A stretch of 64,000 bases of DNA, from assembly GCA_016124975.1 (NCBI GenBank), contig WGMP01000012.1, forward strand, positions 62,001 to 126,000, read 5' to 3'. The notes under the pieces are model-generated. The model worked only from the letters and a program-made list of their open reading frames with translations. It was not told where the DNA came from and did not search any database. The stretch is from Phycisphaera sp. (GTDB lineage Bacteria > Planctomycetota > Phycisphaerae > Phycisphaerales > SM1A02). Positions 8,205-49,144 of the stretch are shown one piece after another (position 1 is the first letter of the stretch; each line of letters starts with the position of its first letter). A program made the translations under genes and the position numbers.

Positions 8205-9335
8205 TCAGGCAGCGCCCGCGGCCGCATCGCGCGCCGTCTCCCGCCGCAGGAGCCGCAGCGCCGCCCCGACGAGGAGGATGAGGACGGGAACCTCGACGAG
8301 CGGGCCGACGACCGTCGCGAAGGCGGTGCCCGAGGCGATCCCGAAGACGGAGATCGCCACGGCGATCGCGAGCTCGAAGTTGTTGCCGCTCGCTGTGAAG
8401 GCGAGCGTGGTCGCGCGTTCGTACTCCGCGCCCGCGCGGCGCGCCATGAAGTACGACGCGAAGAACATCACGACGAAGTAGATCGAGAGCGGCGCCGCGA
8501 TGCGCAGGATGTCGAGGGGCGCCGCCACGATTCGGTCGCCCTGCAGGCTGAACATCACGACGATCGTGAAGAGGAGCGCCACGAGCGTGATCGGCGCGAT
8601 CCTCGGGAGGAACCGCTCCGCGTACCACGCGTCGCCGCGGAGGCGTCGCAGCAGGGCGCGCACGAGGAATCCCGCCGCGAACGGAATGCCGAGATAGATG
8701 GCGACGCTCGCGAAGATCTCGCCGACCCCGACATCGACCACCACTCCCTCGATCCCGACGAGGGGCGGCAGCCAGGTCATGAAGATCCAGGCGTACACCC
8801 CGAAGAAGAGCACCTGGAAGATGCTGTTGAAGGCGACGAGGCCCGCCGCGTACTCGGCGCTTCCGCGCGCGAGGTCGTTCCAGACGAGCACCATGGCGAT
8901 GCAGCGCGCGAGGCCGACCATGACGACGCCGAGCATGTACTCGGGCTTGTCGTGCAGGAAGATCGCCGCCAGCGCGAACATGAGGACCGGCCCGACGACC
9001 CAGTTCTGGACGAGCGAGATCGCGAGGATGCGCCAGTCGCGGAAGACGCGCGGGAGCTCCTCGTAGCGCACCTTCGCGAGCGGCGGGAACATCATCAGCA
9101 CGAGGCCGATCGCGATCGGGATGTTGGTCGTGCCGACCGTGACCGAGTCGGCGAGGTCGCCGACCTGCGGCGCGAGCCGTCCGATCAGGACGCCCGCTCC
9201 CATCGCGAGGAAGATCCAGAGCGTCAGATAGCGGTCGAGGAAGGAGAGCCTCCGCGGCGCCTCCGTGCCGCAGCAGTCCGTCTTCGTGCTCGTGCTCGTG
9301 CTCGTGGCTTCACCGCGCGTGGCTTCACCGCTCAT
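8205..9335 (-). CDS. acr3: ACR3-family arsenite efflux permease
   Basis: A 376-residue inner-membrane protein with about ten membrane segments that exports arsenite. Key family features are the conserved cysteine in [16 protein letters not shown] and the segment [18 protein letters not shown]. The N-terminus is unusual: repeats of GEAT(R/S) and [16 protein letters not shown], a serine/threonine-rich cytosolic extension with a Cys pair, possibly for metalloid capture (inference). The start ATG overlaps the TGA of the upstream arsC-arsM fusion (ATGA), so translation is coupled. It is the last gene of the arsenic operon. Confidence 0.94.
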
Positions 9336-11141: not shown

Positions 11142-12263
11142 TCACGGTGCGCGCGGCTCTGGCGCCTCGCCCGTCTTTCCCACCTCATTCGGCTTCGCGC
11201 CGTCCTTCACGCAGCGAAATCCGATGTGCTCTGTGCCCGTGTCGGGCGGCATGCCGCGGCGCGCGGTCGCGCGGTAGCTCTCGCAATAGCTCGGGTTGCA
11301 GAGGTAGGACCCGCCCTTCGTCACGCGCTCAGGCGTGTCGGGAACGGGCCGCGTCGGATCATGGCTCGAGACAGGCCCGCGCGGGTTGATGCAGCAGCCC
11401 GTGGGCGACTCCGCGGCGATCCGCTTCCTGTCCGCGTGCGCGTCGGAGCGGTAGAGGTCCGCGGTCCAGTTCCACACATTGCCGACCATCTCGTAGAGCC
11501 CATAGCCGTTCGGCGGGAAGCTCCTGACGGGCGCAACGAGCGCGAAGCCGTCCTCCTTGGTGTTGCGGTGCGGGAACTCGCCCGTGAAGGTGTTCGCCAT
11601 GAACTTGCCCGCGTGCGGGCCATCCTTCGGGATGAACGACTCGCCCCACGGATAGCGCGTGTCGCCGCCGCCGCGCGCGGCGAACTCCCACTCGGCCTCC
11701 GTCGGCAGGCGCTTGCCCGCCCACGCCGCGTAGGCCGCGGCGTCCTCCCACGCCACATGGACGACGGGCAGATCTTCCTTCCCTTCGATCGACGAGTTCG
11801 GCCCCTGCGGGCGCCGCCAGTTCGCGCCCGTGGTCCAGGTCCACCATGCGGACATATCGCGGAGGTCGACGGCGCGGTCGGGCGGCGTGAAGACAAGCGA
11901 CCCTGGCGCCAGCATCTCGTCGGGCGGCTTCGGCGTGCCCTCGGGGACCTGCTTCCGCAGCTCCTCCCAGTCGACGGCGCGCTCCGCGACCGTGACATGG
12001 CCCGTCGCCTCGACGAACGCGCGGAACTGCGCGTTGGTGACGGCGGTTTCGTCCATCCAGAATCCATCGACCTTCACGCGGTGCGCGGGACGCTCGTTCG
12101 GAAACGAGCGGGGGTCGTCGGTTCCCATCGTGAACTCGCCGCCCGGGATCCACACCATTCCTGCGGGCGCCTGCTCGAGGCGCGTCGTGGCAGCGCCCGA
12201 TGCCGCCGTCGAGTCGGATGGAGGCGACGCGAGCAGGGCGATGGCGAGGGCGATCGTCGGCAT
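11142..12263 (-). CDS. Exported formylglycine-generating-enzyme (SUMF1) family protein with both active-site cysteines
   Basis: A 373-residue protein with a short signal peptide (MPTIALAIALLASPPS). The FGE-sulfatase fold is clear: GMVWIPGGEFTMGTDD, RPAHRVKVDGFWMDETAVTNAQF, KRLPTEAEWEFAARGG, YEMVGNVWNWTADLY, GGSYLCNPSYCESYR and HIGFRC. The two cysteines of true formylglycine-generating enzymes are present (Cys322 and Cys327, LCNPSYC), so it may oxidise a sulfatase cysteine to formylglycine. No sulfatase gene is in the window. The ATG is 6 nt after a TATGAT box, a leaderless pattern. It is 84 bp upstream of arsR on the same strand. Confidence 0.87.
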   Translation of the reverse strand: MPTIALAIALLASPPSDSTAASGAATTRLEQAPAGMVWIPGGEFTMGTDDPRSFPNERPAHRVKVDGFWMDETAVTNAQFRAFVEATGHVTVAERAVDWEELRKQVPEGTPKPPDEMLAPGSLVFTPPDRAVDLRDMSAWWTWTTGANWRRPQGPNSSIEGKEDLPVVHVAWEDAAAYAAWAGKRLPTEAEWEFAARGGGDTRYPWGESFIPKDGPHAGKFMANTFTGEFPHRNTKEDGFALVAPVRSFPPNGYGLYEMVGNVWNWTADLYRSDAHADRKRIAAESPTGCCINPRGPVSSHDPTRPVPDTPERVTKGGSYLCNPSYCESYRATARRGMPPDTGTEHIGFRCVKDGAKPNEVGKTGEAPEPRAP

Positions 12264-12390: not shown

Positions 12391-13398
12391 TCACGCGTGC
12401 TCCTTCATGCGCGTCGCGAACTCGGCGCGGCTCCGCACCCCGAGCTTCGCATAGATCCGCTTGGTCGCCGACGCGATCGTGTTCACGCTCACGCCGAGGG
12501 CCTGCGCGACCTGCGGGCGCGACTCGCCTGCGGCGAGGCGCTGCGCGATTTCGCGCTCACGCGGTGCGAGGACCGCCTCTGGCACCCTTGTGAGAAAGGC
12601 GAGTTCGCGCGCCAGGGCCTTCTTCTCCCAGGTTCCGAGGTCGCAGATGGGGAGTTCCGGCTCCCTGAGTGGCCTGAACTCGAGCGCGATGTGGAAGGGC
12701 ACGGTCTCGGCCGCCGCTGGGTCTGGCGAAGTTGCGGCGCCGCCGTTGCCCGAAGCGGCTGCGCCGTGGCTTGAAGCGGCTGCGCCGTGGCTTGAAGCGG
12801 CTGCGCCGTGGCTTGAAGCGGCTGCGCCGTGGCTTGAAGCGGCTGCGCCGTGGCTCGACGCGGCTCCGCCTTGGATCCGCGCGGCACCGCGCTTCCGCGC
12901 ATCCGCTTCGATGCGTGTGATCGTCTGCCACGCGTTTCGAAGCGCCTGTGCGATCGCCTCCGACTCGGCGCGGGTCAGCATGAACGACTGGTGTCCGCGG
13001 AACTTGGCGAGCCCGGGCATCCCTCGTGTGTCCGTCGTGTCGTTGCGGTCGATGATGCTCCGGCTGAGCGCTCGGGTCGCCTGCCTGTTGCGGAGCAGCA
13101 CCGCGAGATCCGCGTCCGAGTCCGAGTCCCACTCGATGATCACGAGCTCCGCGATCGACCGATACGCGATGCCGCGTCGGCGCGCGTTCGCCTTCAGGCG
13201 GACCACGAGGCCGACGTCGACGAGGGTATCGAGCGAGCGTTGCGCGACGCCGTCTGAGACTCCGCACGCCTCCGCGAGCTCATGGGCCGTCATCGGCTCT
13301 GCGGAGCGGCGGAGGACTTCCCAGCGCTGCATCAGCGCGATGTCGGGAAGCGCCGCGCGGAGCTTCGGGCAGCTGAGGTTGAGGACCACCGGGATCAT
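12391..13398 (-). CDS. Two-headed regulator: N-terminal winged helix plus C-terminal LuxR HTH, with a repeat linker
   Basis: A 335-residue DNA-binding protein. Residues 20-80 form a winged helix (MQRWEVLRR...HELAEACGVSDGVAQRSLDTL). Residues 178-216 are five GAAASSH heptads, a flexible linker. Residues 277-333 are a LuxR-type HTH (LAPREREIAQRLAAGESR...VSVNTIASATKRIYAKLG). The start ATG has AAGGGA seven bases upstream. The gene is divergent from the large dockerin protein at 13894. Two proteins with the same order lie at 21589 and 45372 and a shorter one at 48563, each beside an exported protein. Which DNA it binds and what signal it reads are unknown. Confidence 0.82.
   Translation of the reverse strand: MIPVVLNLSCPKLRAALPDIALMQRWEVLRRSAEPMTAHELAEACGVSDGVAQRSLDTLVDVGLVVRLKANARRRGIAYRSIAELVIIEWDSDSDADLAVLLRNRQATRALSRSIIDRNDTTDTRGMPGLAKFRGHQSFMLTRAESEAIAQALRNAWQTITRIEADARKRGAARIQGGAASSHGAAASSHGAAASSHGAAASSHGAAASSHGAAASGNGGAATSPDPAAAETVPFHIALEFRPLREPELPICDLGTWEKKALARELAFLTRVPEAVLAPREREIAQRLAAGESRPQVAQALGVSVNTIASATKRIYAKLGVRSRAEFATRMKEHA
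12752..12877 (-). repeat. 21-bp tandem repeat encoding the (GAAASSH)5 linker
   Basis: Five nearly perfect units beginning GAAGCGGCTGCGCCGTGGCT at 12752, 12773, 12794, 12815 and 12836, then a degenerate sixth. The period of 21 keeps the reading frame, so copy-number change would alter linker length without breaking the gene. Confidence 0.93.
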
Positions 13399-13893
13399 TC
13401 AGTTTCCCTTCTGAGACGCGTCAAAACCGCGATCGTACCGAGCGCTTCCGACGCGACGGAGCGGCACCCTTCGTCCGCTTGACCTTCATCGCGCGCGCCC
13501 ACCCGATCAGGTGCTTCGCGATGCCGCGCGCCTTTCGCGGGGCCGAACGGCGATATCGACTGCATCCGCCCGCGCCGCGCGCCTTGCGTGCGGGGCGCTT
13601 CTCTTCGCGCCAGAGGTCGCCAGAGGTCGCCAGAACCCCGCCTGGAAGGGGGATGGCCTGCGAGGCTCGTCCAGTGCACTACGGGCCCCGACTGGAGGGG
13701 GCTGGCGCAGGCCGAGTCCTTCCAATCGGGTACAGGGCAAGGAGCGACCTCACTCAACGCGGCGATTTTCGGAGTTTGCTCTTTGAAAGATCGGAGTTCG
13801 ATGTATCCTCGCCTGTCCCTGCCTCGCGAGAGCTCCCTGTCGCGCCCTGTTGTGCGCGCGGTCTGGTGCGGCACGGTCTGCGGAGAGTGCACG
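13399..13893. other. Divergent control region between the winged-helix/LuxR regulator and the dockerin protein
   Basis: No convincing gene. It holds a 10-bp direct repeat (GCCAGAGGTC, about 13610-13629), and two related GC boxes, CCCCGCCTGGAAGGGGG (from 13636) and CCCCGACTGGAGGGGG (from 13687), similar to a box found upstream of other exported-protein genes here. An ATG at 13801 is in frame with the dockerin gene but lies before the signal peptide. Confidence 0.5.
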
Positions 13894-16449
13894 ATGCCGG
13901 CCGTCACGACTGTTCACGCATCCGTTCTCATCCTTGCGGGCTTTCTCGCTGGATTCCTCGCGCCCTCGGAAGCGGCGCTGGCGCAAGTCTGCCCCGCGTG
14001 CGAGGAGGCGACCGTGGTCGATGTGGGCGACACGCCGTTCGTCGGATCCGCGACGGGCTGCCTGATCCCCGCCGACCAGGGCGGCTGCCTTCTTCCCTCT
14101 TACAACACCTTCTTCTTCTCCTTTACGCCCGCGCAGACGGGCCTGTATCGCGTCTCGACCTGTACGGATGCTCCCCCGAGCGCCGGGCTCACCGTGCTCT
14201 CGGTGTGGGCCGACTGCAGCGGTTTCTCGCTCGTTCAGTGCGGAATCGCCGGATGCCCGAGCGGCAACGCCGATGGAAGCTTCATCGGCGACATCGAGCT
14301 CTTCCAGGGCGTCAACTATCGAATCGGGGTCGGCAGTGGTGGGTGTTGCAGCGACGTCTTCATCGAGAGCGGGACACTGAGCATCGAGCCCATCGATCCC
14401 GCGGGATCGGGGTGCAAGGAGGCGACTCCCGCGGTGCTCGGCCTGAACGCCTACGACACCACCGATCGCAACGAGATCGTCGATCTGGCTGGATTCTGCG
14501 AGCCTGCGCCCGTCGGAGAGCCTTTCGACCGCCGTATTCACAACGCGCAGTACTTCCGATTCACGCCGCCCGCGACCGATGTGTACACAATCTCGACCTG
14601 CGGGCAGGGCGAGCAGATCTGGGAGCGGATCGCCGTCATGGCGGGCTGCTCACCTGCGGACGGCGTCGTCGCCTGCTCGGACTCGGGCTGCTACACGAAT
14701 GACGACAACGCGGGCTCCACGATCGTCGGCGTGCTGCTCGAGGGAGGCGTCGAGTACACGATCATCATCGGAGGCGTGTACGGCTCGCAATCTGGCACGG
14801 GCGCCTTCATGATCGCGCCCTTCGAGGCGTGCCCCGCGCCCAAGCCGACGGTGCAGGAACTCGAGGCCTGCGGCGCGGATGAGAACGCCGGCTGCGTCGG
14901 TTCGCCGAAGTCGGCGGAGCCGATCGTGCTCGGCGACTCCGTCCGCGGGACCATTTGGGCCTCGGGCGGCCTGCGCGACTCCGACTGGTACCGCATCGAG
15001 CTCGACGAGGGAACGAACCTGACGCTCGAGCTTAACTCGCGCATCCCGAGTTTCGCCACGATCTACTTCTCGAACTGCACCACGAGCCTGTTCATGGACC
15101 AGACGGCGGGAGTCTGCCCCGGGCTCACCGACGGCGAGTGTCTGCCCGCGGGCGTCTACTACATCGTGGTCGCGCCGTACGAGCTCTCGGGATTCCCGTG
15201 CGGCTACGCGGCCGGCAACGAGTACACGCTGACCGTCTCGGGCAGGCCGTGCGACGCGAGTCCGCCGCCCAACGACCTTTGCATCGACGCGATCGAGGTC
15301 AGCGAGGGTGCGATGGCGTTCGACAACTACTTCGCGGGCGGCGAGATCGACTTCAAGACCTGCGCGCTCATCGGGCGCGACGTGTGGTTCTCGTTCACTG
15401 CGACGAAGGCGGGGGACTACAGGTTCTCCGTCTGCAACGGTTCCACGCCCTTCAACAGTGGCATGGACCTCTGGACCGCGTGCCCCGTCGAGGGCGGCGA
15501 GGTCGTCGCATGCAACCGCGACGCCAACGACCCGAACTGCGGCAACTCGTCCTACTCGGCCATCATCCTCCCGATGACCGCGGACCAGACCGTGCTCGTC
15601 CGCATCGGCAGCGAGTGGTTCCTCGACATCCTTCCGCCGGGCGATGCGGAGCTCATCATCACGGCTCTTGGCGATGAGATCGTCTGCGGCGACCCCGATG
15701 CGGGCGACTGCTGCGTCGCGCGCGGCCAGCCCTTCTGCAGCGATGCGGAGTGCTGCAACTTCATCTGCCTCGTCGACCCGCCATGCTGCGACACGGCATG
15801 GGACGAGACCTGCGCCGCCGGCGCCGCGCTCTTCTGCTTCTCCCAGTGCGGCCTGCCGCCCGGGAACGACGATTGCTCGAGTCCGCTTCCTGCGGAGGTC
15901 GGCGCGAACGCCTTCCGAAACGCACGCGCCGAAGGCTCGACGCCGACGCCGTGCGGCACCGTGCATTCGGATGTGTGGTTCGAGTACACCGCGACCACGG
16001 ACGGGCCCGTCGCCATCTCGCTCTGCGCGGCCGACGGCGGATGGGCGCTCGTCACGGGCGGCTTCTCGGGCGATCTCGACACACGCATCGCCGTGTTCGA
16101 CTCGTGCAGCGGCTCGCTCGTCGCGTGCGACGACAACGCGTGCGGCGTCGGCTCGCGGGTCGTGTTCACGCCGTCCTGCGGCGCGACCTACCTCGTCGCG
16201 ATCGGCTCGAGCGGCGATGCAGACGGCATCTACAGCCAGGGGGTCGGGTCCTTCACGATCACAGAGACCGGTTCCTGCGGCGGGGTGTGCGGCGCCGATC
16301 TCAACGGCGACGGCGAGGTCGGCGCACAGGATCTCGCGGCGCTCCTCAACGCCTGGGACGGGGCCGCCGGCGATCTGAACGACGATGGAACCACGAACGC
16401 GCAGGACCTCGCGGCGCTGCTCAGTGCGTGGGGGCCGTGCGCGCGGTGA
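13894..16449 (+). CDS. Large secreted cysteine-rich protein with GC-type dockerin tail
   Basis: An 851-residue exported protein. The ATG at 13894 follows GGAGAG and starts a signal peptide (MPAVTTVHASVLILAGFLAG). It contains at least five related beta domains of the pre-peptidase C-terminal type, recognisable by YFRFTPPATDVYTIST, VWFSFTATKAGDYRFSV and VWFEYTATTDGPVAISL. Between them lies a compact cysteine cluster (DCCVARGQPFCSD...CCDTAWDETCAAGAALF), a module I recognise as recurrent in planctomycete exported proteins. Residues 797-851 are a two-repeat dockerin (DLNGDGEVGAQDLAALLNAW, DLNDDGTTNAQDLAALLSAWG). Role unknown; probably cell-surface adhesion or assembly. It is divergent from the winged-helix/LuxR regulator. 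Confidence 0.88.
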   Translation: MPAVTTVHASVLILAGFLAGFLAPSEAALAQVCPACEEATVVDVGDTPFVGSATGCLIPADQGGCLLPSYNTFFFSFTPAQTGLYRVSTCTDAPPSAGLTVLSVWADCSGFSLVQCGIAGCPSGNADGSFIGDIELFQGVNYRIGVGSGGCCSDVFIESGTLSIEPIDPAGSGCKEATPAVLGLNAYDTTDRNEIVDLAGFCEPAPVGEPFDRRIHNAQYFRFTPPATDVYTISTCGQGEQIWERIAVMAGCSPADGVVACSDSGCYTNDDNAGSTIVGVLLEGGVEYTIIIGGVYGSQSGTGAFMIAPFEACPAPKPTVQELEACGADENAGCVGSPKSAEPIVLGDSVRGTIWASGGLRDSDWYRIELDEGTNLTLELNSRIPSFATIYFSNCTTSLFMDQTAGVCPGLTDGECLPAGVYYIVVAPYELSGFPCGYAAGNEYTLTVSGRPCDASPPPNDLCIDAIEVSEGAMAFDNYFAGGEIDFKTCALIGRDVWFSFTATKAGDYRFSVCNGSTPFNSGMDLWTACPVEGGEVVACNRDANDPNCGNSSYSAIILPMTADQTVLVRIGSEWFLDILPPGDAELIITALGDEIVCGDPDAGDCCVARGQPFCSDAECCNFICLVDPPCCDTAWDETCAAGAALFCFSQCGLPPGNDDCSSPLPAEVGANAFRNARAEGSTPTPCGTVHSDVWFEYTATTDGPVAISLCAADGGWALVTGGFSGDLDTRIAVFDSCSGSLVACDDNACGVGSRVVFTPSCGATYLVAIGSSGDADGIYSQGVGSFTITETGSCGGVCGADLNGDGEVGAQDLAALLNAWDGAAGDLNDDGTTNAQDLAALLSAWGPCAR

Positions 16450-18993: not shown

Positions 18994-21216
18994 CTATCGG
19001 CACGCGCCCCACTCTGCGAGCAGGATCGTGAGATCGCCGCTGCCCACCGCGCCGTTTCCGTTGAGGTCTGCCGGGCAATCCTCCGTGCAGGGTCCCCAGC
19101 TCGCGAGGAGCATGACGAGATCGTTCCCGTCCACGGCCCCGTCTCCGGAGAGGTCGGCGATGCAGGGGTGGCGGTCGACATAGCGCGCGAGGAGTTCGAT
19201 GTCCGCCTCGTCGGCGAGGCCATCGCCGTCGAGATCGGTGGGGGACTTGGTGATCCGCTCTATGTCCGCGGCGTCGAGCAAGCCGTCGCCGTTCAGATCG
19301 CCCGCGCGCGGCGAATCGGGAAGCAAGAGCTCGAGCCGCGCGCGCTGCGGGTCCTTCGGGATCAACAGCCCCGTCACGGCGATCAGGCCGCCGGCCTCGG
19401 CGGCGACCGCGCCCGACTGCAGCACCGCATCGGTCTTGTCATCGCGCAGCGTCCAGTGAATCGTCGCGCCCGCCGCGGGCAGCAACCTCCGAGGCTTCCG
19501 CAGCGTGAGGCTTGTCGTCGCGGCGGTTCCTGGGAAGTTGTCGACGCTCACGGCCGACTGGCCCACGAGGAAGAGCGTGCACGACCAGCCCGAAGGCGTG
19601 TCGAAGATCGTCTCCGTGTCCCAGTCGAAGTAGCCGCCCCAGGTGCCCCACGGCGTGCCGCTGTCGGGCGCCCCGTTGCCGAGCGTCGGTTGACGGCCCG
19701 CCGTCGAAAAGTCCTGGTCGTCGTTGAAGAATCCGGGGTACGACTGGCTCGCACGGAAGCGGCTCTGGTAGGGCGCGCCCGATCGTTCGGTGCGCACGGG
19801 CGAGACCCACTCGCCGATGTCGACGCCGGGAATCGACGGGCTGTCGGTCGTCCAGTCCGACGCCGTATGGTCGCGGTTGTCCCAGAAAAGGTGCGTGCCC
19901 CAGCGGCCCGCGGACATCTCTTCGAAGAGCTGGATCGTGAGAGGCCCCCATTCGACGGCCTCGTCGCGCCGACCGCGGAAGATGCGCGTGTGGCAGTAGT
20001 CGCGCTGCGTCTGCGAAATCCGTATCGCAGGGTTGAAGAAGTCGTTGACGCGCAGCACTGCTCCGGTCGGCCCGATCTCGGTCGTCGCGAGATTCTGGGC
20101 GGGCGTCCCGAAGAGTCGCTGACCCGTCTCGGGCGTGTAGTGCTGCGGCACGAACGCCGTCGCCGCGCTGAAGCGCTCGGGCATGAATCGACTGAGAAGA
20201 AGCGTGCCTGCGCCGCCCATCGAGTTGCCCATCACGGCGATGCGATCGGACTGAATCGCATACGGGGAGCGCGACTCGATCCAGTCAATCGTCCACCCCA
20301 GTCGACGGAGGGTGTAGGGCACGACCACCGCGCTGTTGCTCGGAAGGTTGCTCCCGAACGGATTCATGCCTGGCCACCAGCCGAACCAGTTGCTCGGGCG
20401 ATCGAGGCTGACCTGGCCATTCGTCGCGACGAAGACCCGGTCGTCCATGGCGATGGTGATCCCATCGACGGGGGTCGCCCCCGTGTTTGCGTACTGCGCG
20501 GACTCGGGCGCCCACGACCAGTGGCTTCCCTGCGGTCCGCCGCCATGCAGGCAGACGACGGCGGGGTACGGGCCCGCGGGGAGACCGTTCTTCGGCTCGA
20601 ACACGCTGAAGACATGCGGCGCACCGTGCTTGGCGGCGTTGGCGAGGACTGGCGTGTCGGGGCGCGCGTCGTTCGGATCGTCGCGTCCATAGGCCCACAT
20701 CGCGTAGGTGCGGAAGGGGTAGCCCTGCTGCGTGGTGCCCGCCAGTTGGAGGTGACAGGTCACGGGCTCGTTGATCGGGTCGTACACCACGGACACGGGC
20801 GACGGCGTGCGGTTGGTGGCGGAGACCGCCGCGTTCCCGTTGCGCACGACCGCGAAGTACTCGGTCGACTGCGCGCTCGGCGTGAAGACGAAGAGCCCCT
20901 CGTTTGCCGCGAGCTGGTAGACGCCGCCCTTCGCGGTCGGGATGCGCCAGCGCGCGTTCGGCGACGCGAGCTTGAGCCGCGCGCCCGACCACTCGGGCTC
21001 GAACACGCGGCCTGCGAGCGTTCCCTGCGAGGTCGTCGTGATCGGTGTGGTCGATCGATAGATGTCGTATGTGAGGGGAGTGGAGGCGTCGACCTGCCAG
21101 ACCACGAAGACTTGCCCGGCCGCGGACCACGCGCGCACGTTCGACTGAGCCCACGAGGGTGCTGCGACGGCTGCGGCGATTCCAAGCGCTGCGATGATGC
21201 GGAGTACGGTCGGCAT
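18994..21216 (-). CDS. Secreted alpha/beta hydrolase with four C-terminal dockerin repeats
   Basis: A 740-residue exported hydrolase. The ATG at 21216 begins a signal peptide (MPTVLRIIAALGIAAAVAAP). A fibronectin-like N-terminal region follows. The hydrolase core shows the oxyanion segment VVCLHGGGPQG (about 220-230) and the nucleophile elbow IAVMGNSMGGAG with Ser332, typical of esterases and dipeptidyl-peptidase-like enzymes. Residues 638-740 hold four dockerin-type calcium loops (DLNGDGLLDAADI, DLDGDGLADEADI, DLSGDGAVDGNDL, DLNGNGAVGSGDL), twice the usual number. The likely role is extracellular ester or polymer degradation; the substrate is not evident. It is divergent from the winged-helix/LuxR regulator at 21589. 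Confidence 0.88.
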   Translation of the reverse strand: MPTVLRIIAALGIAAAVAAPSWAQSNVRAWSAAGQVFVVWQVDASTPLTYDIYRSTTPITTTSQGTLAGRVFEPEWSGARLKLASPNARWRIPTAKGGVYQLAANEGLFVFTPSAQSTEYFAVVRNGNAAVSATNRTPSPVSVVYDPINEPVTCHLQLAGTTQQGYPFRTYAMWAYGRDDPNDARPDTPVLANAAKHGAPHVFSVFEPKNGLPAGPYPAVVCLHGGGPQGSHWSWAPESAQYANTGATPVDGITIAMDDRVFVATNGQVSLDRPSNWFGWWPGMNPFGSNLPSNSAVVVPYTLRRLGWTIDWIESRSPYAIQSDRIAVMGNSMGGAGTLLLSRFMPERFSAATAFVPQHYTPETGQRLFGTPAQNLATTEIGPTGAVLRVNDFFNPAIRISQTQRDYCHTRIFRGRRDEAVEWGPLTIQLFEEMSAGRWGTHLFWDNRDHTASDWTTDSPSIPGVDIGEWVSPVRTERSGAPYQSRFRASQSYPGFFNDDQDFSTAGRQPTLGNGAPDSGTPWGTWGGYFDWDTETIFDTPSGWSCTLFLVGQSAVSVDNFPGTAATTSLTLRKPRRLLPAAGATIHWTLRDDKTDAVLQSGAVAAEAGGLIAVTGLLIPKDPQRARLELLLPDSPRAGDLNGDGLLDAADIERITKSPTDLDGDGLADEADIELLARYVDRHPCIADLSGDGAVDGNDLVMLLASWGPCTEDCPADLNGNGAVGSGDLTILLAEWGACR

Positions 21217-21588: not shown

Positions 21589-22425
21589 ATGTCGGAAGTG
21601 CAAGTTCAGCTGAAAGACCCCGCCGTGCTGCGGGCCGTGTGCCATGTACCCACCATGCAGCGCTGGGAGATCCTGCGTCGATCGGAGCGGGCGCTTTCCG
21701 CGGCCGAGGTCGCGGCGTCCGCGCATGCCCCGGTCAAGGCGGTCCAGGAGTCGCTCGACCGCCTCGTTGCCGCGCACCTGGCGGAGTCGATCCCCGCGAG
21801 CAGTCGCCGACGCGAGATCACCTATCGCGCCGCGATGAAGCGCCTCTTCCTCAAGTGGGATCGGCACGACCCGGCGGGCGTGAAGGCGGCGCAGGTGCTC
21901 GGCGACAGCATGCGGGACTACAGCCGCAAGCTGATCGCCGAGGCGGAGGTGCACCCAGGGGCCGAGCTGGTCGAGACGCTGAGCCTGGCCGGGAGCACCA
22001 GCGTCGTGCTGCTGAGGGACGACGCAGAGCGGGTGCGCAGCGCCTTGCTCTCGCTCTACTCGATGCTGATGGAGGCGGATCGGCGCGCGCGCGCAGCGGA
22101 GCATGCGGACGCGGCGATTCCCTTCCACCTTGCCTTCGACTTCCGGCGGCTGTGGCAGGCCGATCCACCGTGGGCGGAGTTCGTCGTCAGCGAGTCCGAA
22201 TCGCACGATCGGACGCGCGACCTCTTCTCCGCGTCCCCGGCCGAGGTCCTCTCGCCGCGTGAGCTCGAGATCGCGACGCTGCTTCAGCAGGGAAAGTCGC
22301 GGCCCGAGGTCGCGCGCCAGCTCGGGCTCACGCCGAACACCGTGTCGACCCTCTCGAAGACCATCTATCGGAAGCTCGGCGTCCACGGCCGCGCCGAACT
22401 GGCCGAGCGGCTTCGCTTCCTCTGA
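21589..22425 (+). CDS. Two-headed regulator: N-terminal winged helix plus C-terminal LuxR HTH
   Basis: A 278-residue DNA-binding protein, homologous in order and sequence to the ones at 12391 and 45372. Residues 20-80 form the winged helix (TMQRWEILRRSERALSAAEV...VKAVQESLDRLV). The middle is a helical region with a short RPLW-like block (AFDFRRLWQADPPW) that matches EFRPLREPELP in the first paralogue. The last 60 residues are a LuxR HTH (LSPRELEIATLLQQGKSR...LTPNTVSTLSKTIYRKLG). The ATG has a purine-rich GGAGCGAGACGGGA leader upstream. It lacks the GAAASSH linker. It is divergent from the dockerin hydrolase, which it may control (inference). Confidence 0.83.
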   Translation: MSEVQVQLKDPAVLRAVCHVPTMQRWEILRRSERALSAAEVAASAHAPVKAVQESLDRLVAAHLAESIPASSRRREITYRAAMKRLFLKWDRHDPAGVKAAQVLGDSMRDYSRKLIAEAEVHPGAELVETLSLAGSTSVVLLRDDAERVRSALLSLYSMLMEADRRARAAEHADAAIPFHLAFDFRRLWQADPPWAEFVVSESESHDRTRDLFSASPAEVLSPRELEIATLLQQGKSRPEVARQLGLTPNTVSTLSKTIYRKLGVHGRAELAERLRFL

Positions 22426-44443: not shown

Positions 44444-45061
44444 TCAGCCCATTCGCCGCCGACGGCGCCCGGCAAACACGCCGCTCAGGCCAAGCAGGGC
44501 CAACGCGCCAGGAGCGGGAATCGCGCCTGCCTCGATCGAGGCGCCCGAATTCTCATATGCGATTCCCGTGAGGCGTCGCGTCAGGAAATCGTTTCCAAGC
44601 GAGATGCTGAGCCAGCCGTAGAGGGTCTGGCCGCTCACGGCCCGACGGAATCCGACGAGATTCTCCGAGTTCGGCACGAAGGATGCCATGTTGAAGCTGC
44701 TTCCCATCGTCCCGCCGCCGATGTTGCCGTACCCGCTCGCCGAGTCGATCACGAATCCAGGGTCCAGCCGGTTGATGGTGGGGGGAAGGCCCGTGGTGCC
44801 AACGAAGAAGTTGTTCGAGAGGCTCTGCGAGTTCACCGTGAGGAAGTTCGGGTTGGTTCCGGTCAGGCTCATGTCCCAGCCCGTGAAGTTCCCGGTGGTG
44901 CTCGTCGTGAAGGTGTCGAGATCGATCCAGAGCCGAAGGCCAGTGCCGACCGGGACGGCGATGTCGAGCGGACCGCTGTAGATGATGGCGGCGTGGGACG
45001 ATGCGACGGTGGCGAGCGAAGTCGCCGCGACGGCGATCGCGCAGAGGGAGCGAGCGTTCAT
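44444..45061 (-). CDS. Exported protein with PEP-CTERM-like sorting tail
   Basis: A 205-residue exported protein. The ATG at 45061 has GGAG about nine bases upstream and starts a signal peptide (MNARSLCAIAVAATSLATVA). It is a paralogue of the protein at 35991: both open with AIxxSGPxxIxI, share a GWDMSL/GYDVNL segment and have GFRRAVSGQTLYGWL / GFRFLN...VHYGYL. The tail is IPAPGALALLGLSGVFAGRRRRR followed by MG. It is divergent from the winged-helix/LuxR regulator at 45372. Confidence 0.87.
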   Translation of the reverse strand: MNARSLCAIAVAATSLATVASSHAAIIYSGPLDIAVPVGTGLRLWIDLDTFTTSTTGNFTGWDMSLTGTNPNFLTVNSQSLSNNFFVGTTGLPPTINRLDPGFVIDSASGYGNIGGGTMGSSFNMASFVPNSENLVGFRRAVSGQTLYGWLSISLGNDFLTRRLTGIAYENSGASIEAGAIPAPGALALLGLSGVFAGRRRRRMG

Positions 45062-45371
45062 GAAGGGAACTCCAAACAGGGTGGAACAACGAGGGACGAG
45101 ACCGAGACCAGCAAGGACACGCTGCCTCGGTGGCGGGGGAGGGATTGCCGCCGTCGCCGACCATGCTCCAGACGCCTCGCGGAGCAAGCCATACCTGCGA
45201 GAGGTTGACACTTTCCGCATCGCTGTACCTACGGTTAGGTACACGGCGGCTCCCGCCGCCGCAGCCAGGCGACCCTTGCCGTGGCTACCGTGCGCGAGAG
45301 CCCGCGTCGCGCCCGAGTGCGGAGTCGAGCGTGCGCCCATCGTGATCGCTTTCGCTGCATGAGACCGTCCA
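45062..45371. other. Divergent control region, PEP-CTERM-like gene / winged-helix-LuxR regulator
   Basis: No gene. It contains TTGACA and a 20-bp dyad, listed separately. Confidence 0.55.
45205..45243 (+). promoter_or_regulatory. -35-like box and 20-bp operator-like dyad
   Basis: TTGACA (45205-45210) is followed by the perfect inverted repeat TGTACCTA (45224-45231), CGGT, TAGGTACA (45236-45243). The dyad covers the place where a -10 would lie and is well centred between the two divergent genes, so it is a candidate site for the regulator encoded at 45372. Confidence 0.6.
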
Positions 45372-46202
45372 TTGAGTAAGTCGACCCACATCAATGTCGC
45401 CCAGCCGGGACTCGCCGATGCGATTCGCAGTCCGCGCACCATGGGCATCTGGGAGGTCCTTCGGCGGCATCGGCGCGCCGCGTCGGCGTCCCGGTTGGCC
45501 GAGCTCTGCCAGTGCAGCCTCGCGGAGGCCCAGCAATCCCTCGACCTCCTCGAGCGCGCCACGCTCGTGCGCAAGCGCCGGGCATCGCGTGGCCGCCGGT
45601 CGGCCGTGTACGAGACCGCCGTTGCGTCGATCTCGGTGATCTTCGATCGCGGAGATCCGGGCGAGGCGAGGATCTTCCGCGGCCTCGAGCAGTTCGTCAC
45701 CCGTGAACTCGAGGACAAGCACTTCGAGCACGAGATCCCGATCACGAGCGCGCCGGCCGGGCACTGGAGCTACTACCACTGCAACCCGATGTTCCTCGAG
45801 GCGGCCGACATCGAGGAACTCAGGCGGCGGATCGCGCGCGTCGAGGAGTTCGTCAGTCTCCTGAACGACCGGCAGTCGGAAAGCATGACCACGCAGAGCT
45901 GCAACCATGTCATGGCGATCCGCGTCTCGCCGCTCGGCGGAGCCGTCATGCCGCAGCCCCATGTCAGGCTGGTGGGAAGGAACCTCGCCGAGGCGCCACG
46001 CCGCGCCGTCTCCGCGCCGTCGACGCGGCTGTCGCGCCGCGAACGCGAAGCTGTCCTCGCGCTGCGCGACGGAAAGACCAGGGCGGCGGTCGCGAAGCAC
46101 CTCGGGATCTCGGTGTACACGCTGGGCACGCTCTGCAAGCGCGCCTACCGCAAGCTCGGCATCAACCGGGTGTCGCAGCTTCGGGACATCGCGATCGACT
46201 AG
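45372..46202 (+). CDS. Two-headed regulator: N-terminal winged helix plus C-terminal LuxR HTH
   Basis: A 276-residue regulator, third member of the family also seen at 12391 and 21589. The winged helix is at residues 20-80 (TMGIWEVLRRHRRAASASRL...LAEAQQSLDLLERAT), and the LuxR HTH at the C-terminus (LSRREREAVLALRDGKTR...ISVYTLGTLCKRAYRKLG). The middle part (FVTRELEDKHFEHEIPIT, HCNPMFLEAADIEELRRRI) differs from its paralogues and may be the sensing part. The start is TTG 45372, chosen because the N-terminus then aligns with the paralogues; no ATG is in frame before residue 24. The TAG stop is made by the end of a MITE-like element. Confidence 0.8.
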   Translation: MSKSTHINVAQPGLADAIRSPRTMGIWEVLRRHRRAASASRLAELCQCSLAEAQQSLDLLERATLVRKRRASRGRRSAVYETAVASISVIFDRGDPGEARIFRGLEQFVTRELEDKHFEHEIPITSAPAGHWSYYHCNPMFLEAADIEELRRRIARVEEFVSLLNDRQSESMTTQSCNHVMAIRVSPLGGAVMPQPHVRLVGRNLAEAPRRAVSAPSTRLSRREREAVLALRDGKTRAAVAKHLGISVYTLGTLCKRAYRKLGINRVSQLRDIAID

Positions 46203-47181: not shown

Positions 47182-48453
47182 TCAGTTGCGTCGGATGTCG
47201 GCCTGCGATTGCCCTTCAGTCCCAGGCTTGCCACTGTCAGGCGTCTCGGCGTCTGTCTCTATCTTTCCGCCAAGCCACGCCGCCGCGGCATCCAGCACCT
47301 TGTCCGGCGCGCCGTCCGAGCCCGGGAATGCCGTCTCGCGCGTGGGGGCGGGCAGGTTGAACGCGACATCTGGCGCGATCGGCCCGCCGAAGGCCCTCCC
47401 CGCGCTGTCGTAGAGCGCGGAGGCGGTGATGTTGAGGATCGATCCGTCCTGCAGGGTGACCGTTGCGTTCGCAGATGACTTCCCGGCGGTGGGGTCGCCG
47501 AACGATCGCGTGTTCGCGCGATTCCTGAAGGAGACGACGAGGCTCTCGCCGCTGCTCGCGGTCCGCTGATCGATGAGCAGCGCGACGGGAAGCCGCGAGG
47601 TCTCGGGCGCGGCGAACGCGTCGAGGGCGAACACCTTGGAGGTCGGTTCATTGATCCAAGCGGCGCCCGCAGAAGTTCCCCACGTCATGCGCGATCCATC
47701 GGGCGCGACGATGGATCCGTGGGCGCCGTCGCCCAAGATGTTCGAGAGCGCGGCGAGCATCGGCCACTGGTTTCCTCCGACGTTCCGACGAAGGTCGATG
47801 ATCCAGCCCTGCGCACCTGCATCGACCAGCTCGCGCTGAAGCGCTGCGAGCCTCGAGGCGTAGCTGGTCATCCTCTCCCTCTCCATCGCGATGAGGTACG
47901 GAACCCTCAGATAGCCGAGCTTCGTTCCTCCGGGTCCTTCAACCAGCCTTCCGACGGGATCGATCGATGGCGGCATCGCGGGTCCGCTGCTCGCAGGCGT
48001 CTGCCCCTGCGCCCCCGCGTCCCGAACCTTCGCGGCCTCGGCCGCGTTCAGGTAGGAGCTGTGGCCGTCGTCGAGTTGCGCCACGACCCAGCGGATGACC
48101 TCGTCGGACGACTTGCCCTCTGCGACCATCGTGTCCGCGCGCGCGCGGATGGCCGTCCAATCAATCGAACCCCGGCGATACGAGTTCGCCTCGCATGCAT
48201 TGATCGCCTCACGGATCAAGTCTGCGGAAGAGTTCGCGGCGGGTGGCGGCGTACTCGCGACCGAAGCGCCCTGCGTGACTTCCTCGTCGGAGATACCGAA
48301 CGCGATCGGTCTCGGATCGGAGGAGACGCTGAACTCGACATCGGGCGCCTCGAAGTCGAGGAACCGAACCTCGGCGCCGTTGCAGCCCGAGAGTGCCGCG
48401 AGGGTGACGATCTGAAGAGCAACAACGAGATTGGAAGACATGGGTGCGGGCAT
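47182..48453 (-). CDS. S41-family (C-terminal-processing-like) peptidase, predicted lipoprotein
   Basis: A 423-residue exported protein. The signal ends in a lipobox (TLAALSGC). The N-terminal helical part has VAQLDDGHSSYL, and the peptidase core has LGYLRVPYLIA, GWIIDLRRNVGGN, the nucleophile region LLIDQRTASSGESLVVSF and the Lys in GDPTAGKSSANATV. These fit the Ser-Lys dyad of S41 peptidases; no PDZ domain is evident. I use ATG 48453 (AGGA just upstream); ATG 48441 is close. It is divergent from the winged-helix gene at 48563 across an unusually AT-rich spacer. Confidence 0.85.
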   Translation of the reverse strand: MPAPMSSNLVVALQIVTLAALSGCNGAEVRFLDFEAPDVEFSVSSDPRPIAFGISDEEVTQGASVASTPPPAANSSADLIREAINACEANSYRRGSIDWTAIRARADTMVAEGKSSDEVIRWVVAQLDDGHSSYLNAAEAAKVRDAGAQGQTPASSGPAMPPSIDPVGRLVEGPGGTKLGYLRVPYLIAMERERMTSYASRLAALQRELVDAGAQGWIIDLRRNVGGNQWPMLAALSNILGDGAHGSIVAPDGSRMTWGTSAGAAWINEPTSKVFALDAFAAPETSRLPVALLIDQRTASSGESLVVSFRNRANTRSFGDPTAGKSSANATVTLQDGSILNITASALYDSAGRAFGGPIAPDVAFNLPAPTRETAFPGSDGAPDKVLDAAAAWLGGKIETDAETPDSGKPGTEGQSQADIRRN

Positions 48454-48562: not shown

Positions 48563-49144
48563 ATGCCGATGCAGCCCGATGGATCGTTCGCCGTCCGCAC
48601 CCCGTCCGAATGGCGCATGATCGGAACCGCCACCTGGGTCGATATCTACGCCGCGCTCGGCAGGGGGGAGGCGCTGACGGCGCAGGAGATCGCTGCGCGT
48701 GTTGGTCGAACCCGCCAGAACATCTACTTCCATCTCAAGAAGCTCGAGGGGGTCGGTCTCGTCCGGGTGGTCGAGCATCGGCCAGCGGTGCGTCGGCCGG
48801 AGGCGGTGTACTCGCTGGTCACGCCTCGCGTCATGCTTGAGCCCCCCAGCGGCCGTTCGACGAGGGCCGGCAGCTTCTCCCGAACCTACGACAAGCTGTT
48901 CCGGGCCACGAGCCGCGAGTTCGCATCCGCCGCGCGGTCTGGCCGTCTTAGGAGTGCGGGCGACGCGCGCGACTGGGTCGTCCTGAAGCTGGTTGCACGG
49001 CCGACGGCCGTGCAGCGGCGGCAGGTTCGCGAACTTGCCGGACGAATCCACGAGATCCTGGGCGAGTCGCATGGTGCGACCACCGGCGAGGTTTGGACCG
49101 TACTGTTCGCCGCGCTTCCACTGGTCGATCGGCCTTCGACCTGA
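48563..49144 (+). CDS. Winged-helix regulator without LuxR domain
   Basis: A 193-residue regulator. The winged helix lies at about residues 20-90 (ATWVDIYAALGRGEALTAQE, VGRTRQNIYFHLKKLEGVGL) and is of the ArsR/MarR-like type. Its N-terminal layout resembles the three winged-helix/LuxR proteins of the window, but the C-terminus is a helical domain (QVRELAGRIHEILGESHGAT) instead of a LuxR HTH. The ATG has GAAGGAG eight bases upstream. It is divergent from the S41 lipoprotein gene and probably binds the palindromes between them. Confidence 0.82.
   Translation: MPMQPDGSFAVRTPSEWRMIGTATWVDIYAALGRGEALTAQEIAARVGRTRQNIYFHLKKLEGVGLVRVVEHRPAVRRPEAVYSLVTPRVMLEPPSGRSTRAGSFSRTYDKLFRATSREFASAARSGRLRSAGDARDWVVLKLVARPTAVQRRQVRELAGRIHEILGESHGATTGEVWTVLFAALPLVDRPST

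Follow-up and report, generated by a model that had tools for sequence, protein, structure and literature searches.

Winged-helix regulators with a LuxR head tend to stand back to back with export genes in a lineage of uncultured planctomycetes, which suggests locally controlled surface proteins

The window analysed here is a stretch of 64,000 nucleotides from Phycisphaera sp. (Planctomycetota, Phycisphaerales; GenBank assembly GCA_016124975.1, contig WGMP01000012.1, positions 62,001 to 126,000 of the forward strand), and it encodes three regulators in which a whole winged-helix regulator is fused to a GerE/LuxR-type helix-turn-helix (HTH) head, an unusual build. All three are transcribed away from a gene for an exported protein, and this back-to-back arrangement, read from the sequence, suggests that the exported partners are locally controlled surface proteins. 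Four properties of the wider family were computed: a common architecture, homology of the N-terminal two-thirds to a regulator that has no LuxR head, an enrichment of exported proteins among the divergent partners, and a dyad in part of the shared spacers. The genome that contains the window (G000; 3.6 Mb, 59 contigs) has 12 full-length copies of the family, and the three regulators of the window are three of these paralogues.

Regulator 1 (P0001, 335 aa; 12391..13398, minus strand) consists of a winged helix (residues ~1-90), a middle domain (~95-258) with a low-complexity insert, and a GerE/LuxR HTH (~273-334). The same architecture is found in regulator 2 (278 aa; 21589..22425, plus strand) and regulator 3 (276 aa; 45372..46202, plus strand), for which the family alignment favours a TTG start and the gene-calling script took the ATG at 45441. 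Each winged helix has a W-E-x-L-R-R first helix, and each C-terminus is matched by the Pfam GerE model (PF00196), with E = 3.3e-13, 3.3e-14 and 2e-05 for regulators 1, 2 and 3, respectively (49.5, 52.7 and 24.6 bits; cut-off 23.5). This model matches all 58 of the 58 family members scanned at E <= 0.01. The N-terminus of regulator 1 matches the Pfam model HTH_20 (E = 1.5e-07, 31.7 bits, cut-off 27) and regulator 3 falls slightly below the same cut-off (E = 7.6e-06, 26.2 bits). The N-terminus of regulator 2 has no HTH_20 match and only weak matches to other models (E >= 0.012), and its winged helix was identified via alignment to regulators 1 and 3. Counted irrespective of the position within the protein, HTH_20 matches at E <= 0.01 were obtained for 27 of the 58 members. 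The 12 copies of the genome align with invariant residues in both heads and with a common middle stretch, in which several members carry a C-N-H motif that is replaced by P-F-H in regulators 1 and 2 (compare the metal-binding residues of ArsR/SmtB). An earlier note on this DNA had recognised the order of winged helix first and LuxR HTH last in the three proteins, and both heads are confirmed in all three, which are paralogues. The notion that the two domains are unrelated fusions finds no support, as the alignment runs along the length of the copies and a single tree results. The same note had added a fourth regulator without a LuxR part, encoded at 48563..49144 (plus strand). This protein does have the winged helix (HTH_20, E = 6.6e-13) and no GerE match, but it matches the family profile with only 28.8 bits, in an alignment limited to the winged helix and a portion of the middle domain, and because of this weak match it is taken as a distant relative outside the family count.

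In an AlphaFold2 model of regulator 1 (58 aligned rows; pLDDT 86.6, pTM 0.75), the winged helix is followed by a middle part of long helices with strands, a disordered repeat insert (residues 186-216) and a four-helix LuxR head. The modelled LuxR head superimposes on the DNA-binding domains of LiaR, VraR, EL222, RcsB and NarL with Z 11.8-12.5 and a root-mean-square deviation of 0.9-1.2 over 61-65 residues (top nine rows). For the winged helix, structures of the MarR/ArsR type rank highest (best Foldseek E 7.4e-4), with weak whole-chain scores, and its sequence matches ZitR (E 4.2e-7). The family thus resembles the NarL/FixJ-type regulators (GerE, PF00196; NarL, LiaR, VraR) in the C-terminal four-helix HTH (Z 11.8-12.5, 63-65 residues) and, in one branch, in TACYYM half sites, but it differs from them in having a second DNA-binding-type fold at the N-terminus. 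The Pfam and NCBIfam matches listed for regulators 1-3 include no receiver domain, the N-terminal fold being modelled as a winged helix instead, and no autoinducer-binding domain, the LuxR autoinducer-receptor models matching at the GerE end alone. Likewise, no single model that spans both heads is among the Pfam matches listed or the NCBIfam matches listed for regulators 1-3. EpsA (TIGR03020), a LuxR regulator associated with XrtB/PEP-CTERM, is alike in its LuxR head and is linked to PEP-CTERM by the name of the model; however, TIGR03020, which has a cut-off of 170 bits, matches the C-terminal part only and scores regulators 1, 2 and 3 at 22.7, 32.9 and 22.7 bits, which places them outside that group.

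The divergent partner of regulator 1 is an exported 851-aa protein with a signal peptide and a C-terminal GC-type dockerin pair (13894..16449, plus strand), whose dockerin repeats are plain to the eye and score under both curated cut-offs (Pfam 21.4 vs 22.9; NCBIfam 20.7 vs 29). Regulator 2 diverges from an exported dockerin protein with an esterase-like domain (18994..21216, minus strand; Pfam Dockerin_1 27.8, cut-off 22.9; NCBIfam 26.5, cut-off 29), and regulator 3 from a 205-aa PEP-CTERM protein (44444..45061, minus strand; TIGR02595 19.6, cut-off 16). The LuxR-less protein at 48563..49144 has an S41 peptidase-like lipoprotein as its divergent partner (47182..48453, minus strand; Peptidase_S41 E = 4.6e-25), so that all four divergent exported neighbours named in the earlier note were recovered.

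The generality of the pairing was assessed in 80 neighbourhoods from related genomes, mostly multi-contig drafts, and in 20 control stretches of 20 kb that were hand-picked away from the regulators, mostly on regulator-bearing contigs. Fragmentary or contig-edge matches were omitted from the neighbourhoods (e.g. in G002, G004, G014, G339, G360 and G375). Genes were called by a purpose-written script, one export rule was applied throughout, and a divergent partner was defined as lying within 1.5 kb, partial regulators included; the script missed some regulators, which were restored by profile search, as well as some dockerin ends (e.g. L144, L154, L159), and made doubtful export calls (e.g. L165). 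By these definitions, 37 of 46 divergent partners are exported, compared with 29 of the 91 genes that make up divergent pairs in the control stretches and 49 of the 141 such genes in the same neighbourhoods (Fisher p ~5e-8 each), and dockerin or PEP-CTERM ends are found in 24/46 partners vs 6/91 and 14/141. Of the 27 clusters obtained by grouping the regulators at 50% identity, 23 have an exported partner and 14 a partner with a dockerin or PEP-CTERM end. Among full-length copies, the upstream gene is exported in 34 of 41 cases when divergent and in 9 of 32 when on the same strand, and the divergent orientation itself is commoner for the regulators (42/80 vs 205/573 and 106/286). In G000, a divergent neighbour is present for 6 of the 12 copies and is exported in every case. 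TetR regulators served as a further control under the same crude rule: of 18 loci, 16 have an upstream gene, 12 of these are divergent and 4 of the 12 are exported. For relatives without the LuxR head, 1 of 6 divergent partners is exported, in a small set with mostly long spacers and with two distant relatives among the six. Chance pairing in an export-rich genome was dropped as an explanation after the two control sets and the TetR control. The earlier note had proposed to compare the neighbours of related regulators with random gene pairs, and the enrichment was found, also after clustering.

A palindrome is visible in an alignment of 12 spacers (an 11-member cluster and a split relative), 8 of which contain the pattern. 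Of 103 regions upstream of regulators, 9 contain TACYY-N6-RRGTA, compared with an expectation of 0.06 after shuffling. For other genes the count is 12 of 919 upstream regions, and every one of these 12 genes adjoins a family regulator, being its divergent partner (9) or, in three related loci, lying just downstream of it (3). When 3,159 four-base dyads were enumerated with no prior choice, GTAC-N10-GTAC ranked first (9/130 vs 0/472, p 8e-7 uncorrected, several of the nine spacers being orthologous members of one cluster). The wide form YGTNNC-N8-GNNACR is found in 21 of 130 spacers beside regulators vs 2 of 472, a comparison that is descriptive only since this form was shaped on the same spacers, and the four-base enumeration is the fairer measure. 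Within the window, the 20-bp dyad TGTACCTACGGTTAGGTACA (45224..45243) lies between regulator 3 and its PEP-CTERM partner and is the sole occurrence of TGTACC-N8-GGTACA in the genome. Its arms are kept, with one extra base between them, in the orthologous spacer of G368, a member of another genus in which the orthologue of regulator 3 also faces a partner with a PEP-CTERM end. NarL sites have a 7-2-7 arrangement. One large branch of the family has the half site TACYYM with 7-2-7 spacing, and the NarL heptamer has the consensus TACYYMT (PMC4886647). In the clearest divergent cases (G340, G343, G378, G009, G008, G003, G031 and G317) the dyad is closer to the start of the regulator than to that of the partner. 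For regulator 3 the distances are 128 bp to the TTG or 197 bp to the ATG and 162 bp to the partner start, so that the nearer gene depends on the start chosen.

In the proposed model, a regulator dimer would bind the 20-bp dyad YGTNNC-N8-GNNACR, which resembles the NarL heptamer in one large branch, in the divergent spacer, mainly via the LuxR head, and would then control its own gene and that of the neighbouring exported protein, often dockerin- or PEP-CTERM-tagged. The position of the dyad nearer the regulator start would fit self-repression combined with activation of the partner, and reception of the signal would fall to the winged helix or to the middle domain. We regard this model of a fused regulator that binds the dyad and controls itself and its exported neighbour as probable, with binding, dimerisation, the reading head, the direction of control and the signal as its predicted parts. 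A more far-reaching version, according to which the family expanded so that individual surface-protein genes with dockerin or PEP-CTERM tags each have a switch and a dyad variant of their own, with some cross-control in trans, is conceivable and rather doubtful.

Control is probably not only local, because a GTAC-type dyad also precedes orthologous PEP-CTERM genes on contigs without a family regulator. It lies ~270 bp upstream of these genes in G000 (C37) and G012 (C84), the products being 59% identical over 259 residues, and neither contig has a family match among those listed by the profile search. These genes are probably a target in trans. On the G000 contig, four PEP-CTERM genes stand in a row on one strand, with the GTAC-type dyad upstream of the first one transcribed (L212:86-3609). 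A search for GTACYYN6RRGTAC throughout 18 genomes gave 21 forward hits vs 30 for a control pattern, hence no enrichment, and a large GTAC-type regulon was rejected. Of these 21 hits, 8 are the regulator spacers known beforehand; 10 of the other 13 were inspected (the remaining 3 being in G009), and 5 of them lie within called genes and 5 are intergenic, including the 2 that precede the orthologous PEP-CTERM genes. The same GTACCCC-type palindrome is also intergenic in L256 and L265 (G345:C13 and G048:C207), where no called gene starts away from it within the stretch, and it may there represent an RNA or other element.

Several observations weigh against the model of local control. Genes downstream of full-length copies are also somewhat export-rich (same strand 21/47, convergent 15/34), and 38 of the 80 full-length copies with an upstream gene have no divergent one; in G000, 5 of the 12 copies have a same-strand upstream gene (5 of the 11 for which this gene is known) and 1 lies at a contig end. 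Nine of the 46 divergent partners are not called exported and were named by eye as 2 PyrE-like, 4 NCS1-transporter-like, 1 epimerase-like and 2 unclear proteins (L113, L116). Furthermore, most spacers lack the dyad (wide form in 21/130), regulator 2 and the C26 copy have weak candidate sites, which stand closer to the partner, and the common descent of the spacers makes the p values smaller than they should be. The spacer of locus 1 has no convincing dyad, its two genes are not found as a pair in G012, the sole other genome in which close orthologues of both proteins were found, and the candidate trans target speaks against simple local pairing. The GTAC-type pattern also lacks genome-wide enrichment. 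Part of this would be expected if adjacency came without regulation, dockerin and PEP-CTERM genes being common and the regulators mainly controlling themselves or distant genes: exported genes make up 86/280 in the control stretches, and the same-strand copies of G000, the separated locus-1 orthologues in G012 and the PEP-CTERM genes on contigs without a regulator fit such a view. It is nevertheless unlikely, since the partners are 80% exported vs 32-35% in the two controls and 4/12 for TetR, since the excess peaks in the divergent position and is absent from same-strand upstream genes, and since the dyad, where found, sits in the shared spacer. The inference of the earlier note that each regulator governs its neighbour is strengthened for the family as a whole, for which we hold it to be likely in view of the partner enrichment and the concentration of dyads in spacers. 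A dedicated switch in the form worded there finds no support, given that only half of the G000 copies face an exported gene, that some partners (PyrE-, NCS1-transporter- or epimerase-like) belong to metabolism or transport, that tandem and co-directional copies exist, and given the trans target and the fate of locus 1 in G012.

A different reading concerns the head that recognises the dyad. MarR-type winged helices, too, bind dyads of this size, and the winged helix might read it, leaving another site or another job to the LuxR head. This appears improbable in light of the TACYYM half sites with NarL-like 7-2-7 spacing in one large branch and of the site variants, which differ along with the recognition helix of the LuxR head. 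With relaxed patterns, 15 of the 71 regulators classed as T-type by a residue of this helix have a site (14 GTAC forms, 1 GT[AC]GC) and 56 have neither, and 7 of the 17 E-type regulators have a site, GT[AC]GC in 7/7, and 10 have neither. In the tree, however, the 15 E-type rows all fall into a single clade that also contains three T-type rows, and one of these three (L152) carries the GT[AC]GC site of the clade. The covariation between residue and site consequently counts as one event, gives no proof of the binding head and, being confounded by descent, was dropped as independent evidence, a point in favour of the winged helix. Slightly less probable still is that regulator and exported gene spread jointly as a duplicated or mobile cassette, their linkage reflecting the mode of spread and not control. 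Paralogues are often in tandem or on the same contig (G000 C4, C26, C44 and C47; three in a row in G012:C605; two in G371 and G374), as a cassette would have it. However, the tree requires 13 changes of the character 'T-type with exported divergent partner', no fewer than 12 of them forced by well-supported branches (a label that is also lost at contig ends), and the partners are of different kinds (sulfatase-dockerin, PEP-CTERM, lipoprotein and others), which argues against simple copying of regulator and partner together.

Of the 181 genomes and 45 genera in the GTDB family of the window genome, 56 and 13, respectively, gave profile matches at E <= 1e-18, some of them fragmentary. Among 199 genomes of the phylum, with at most 12 candidates scored per genome, the matches listed include full-length ones in G000 alone and none in the 198 others, in which they mostly span the LuxR part and in few cases the N-terminal part. 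Eight related loci were found in named records, labelled as Phycisphaerales (2), Planctomycetaceae (1), uncultured bacterium (2) and otherwise (3, taken as mislabelled). A shorter family without the LuxR head was found in the form of 15 proteins in 18 stretches (166-257 aa as called); in seven genomes congeneric with that of the window, its gene converges with one that by eye resembles uvrA. Comparison of 10 headless with 58 two-headed rows by hhalign gave a probability of 99.6 and E 3.2e-24, so that these HTH_20/ArsR-MarR-like relatives are homologous in winged helix and middle domain over 203 columns and differ in having no LuxR head. As they align with the N-terminal two-thirds of the two-headed profile, the simplest reading is a fusion with a GerE head followed by expansion. 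The two-headed proteins would accordingly be one-component transcription regulators that form a family specific to the lineage and rich in paralogues, in which a complete HTH_20/ArsR-like regulator was joined to a GerE/LuxR head, a view that we consider probable jointly with the dyad-control model. Family copies occur in tandem, three in G012:C605, two each in G371, G374, G011 and G013, and two in one frame in G074, and co-directional copies also exist. In the case of G074 (L150:1906-3729, contig C94), the two regulators in one open frame may form a single, four-headed protein of 607 aa. In G343 (L125:3658-4545), a family regulator split by an in-frame stop was called as two pieces and adjoins a dockerin partner and a GTAC-type dyad. 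Upstream of one G000 regulator (L025:4418-9066, contig C51), ~3 kb are free of called genes; downstream of this regulator, a short orphan GerE frame (~8503-8664) that may be a decayed duplicate is followed by a cytochrome-oxidase-like gene (by eye).

At locus 1, the spacer that separates regulator 1 from its divergent dockerin partner (13399..13893) has as its best candidate site the segment 13434-13453, which was rejected as only 6 of 10 positions pair. The G012 orthologue of regulator 1 (60% identity over 330 aligned columns) is part of a three-copy tandem that starts at a contig end, and that of the dockerin protein (76%) is located on a different contig, behind its own paralogue, with no family regulator called there. 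For this locus, control of the neighbour by regulator 1 remains evenly balanced. The disordered SHGAAAS insert of regulator 1 is encoded by a 21-bp tandem repeat (12734..12874, minus strand; 6.7 copies, 92% matches) and is mostly missing from the G012 orthologue; this part of the middle domain has probably expanded recently. The dockerin protein itself comes from a repeated family of large dockerin proteins, several of them in tandem, on stretches where no family regulator was called (L278-L283). Directly downstream of regulator 1 and on the same strand lies a gene for an exported FGE-sulfatase (SUMF1-like) protein (11142-12263, minus strand; E 5.1e-82). Proteins ending in GFRVAR or GFRVVR, presumably similar to FGE proteins, adjoin regulators in G013, G011 and G368. 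A PADLOC scan gave nothing beyond weak HTH matches.

Planctomycetes have many dockerin and PEP-CTERM proteins, the role and control of which are poorly known. For freshwater planctomycetes, a cohesin/dockerin 'planctosome' has been proposed (PMC6461901). Regulation of a PEP-CTERM protein is described for pepA of Aquincola, which is reported to be under RpoN-dependent, i.e. sigma-54, control and not under that of a local one-component regulator (PMC9850573). Among the papers listed by literature searches, which covered sources other than subscription papers, no title deals with such a two-headed family or its lineage-specific expansion. The regulator family described here marks dockerin and PEP-CTERM genes and comes with a predicted operator, which makes the control of these genes directly testable and offers a handle on which planctomycete surface proteins act together. 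If the more far-reaching version is true, the surface proteome of one planctomycete family would be controlled member by member.

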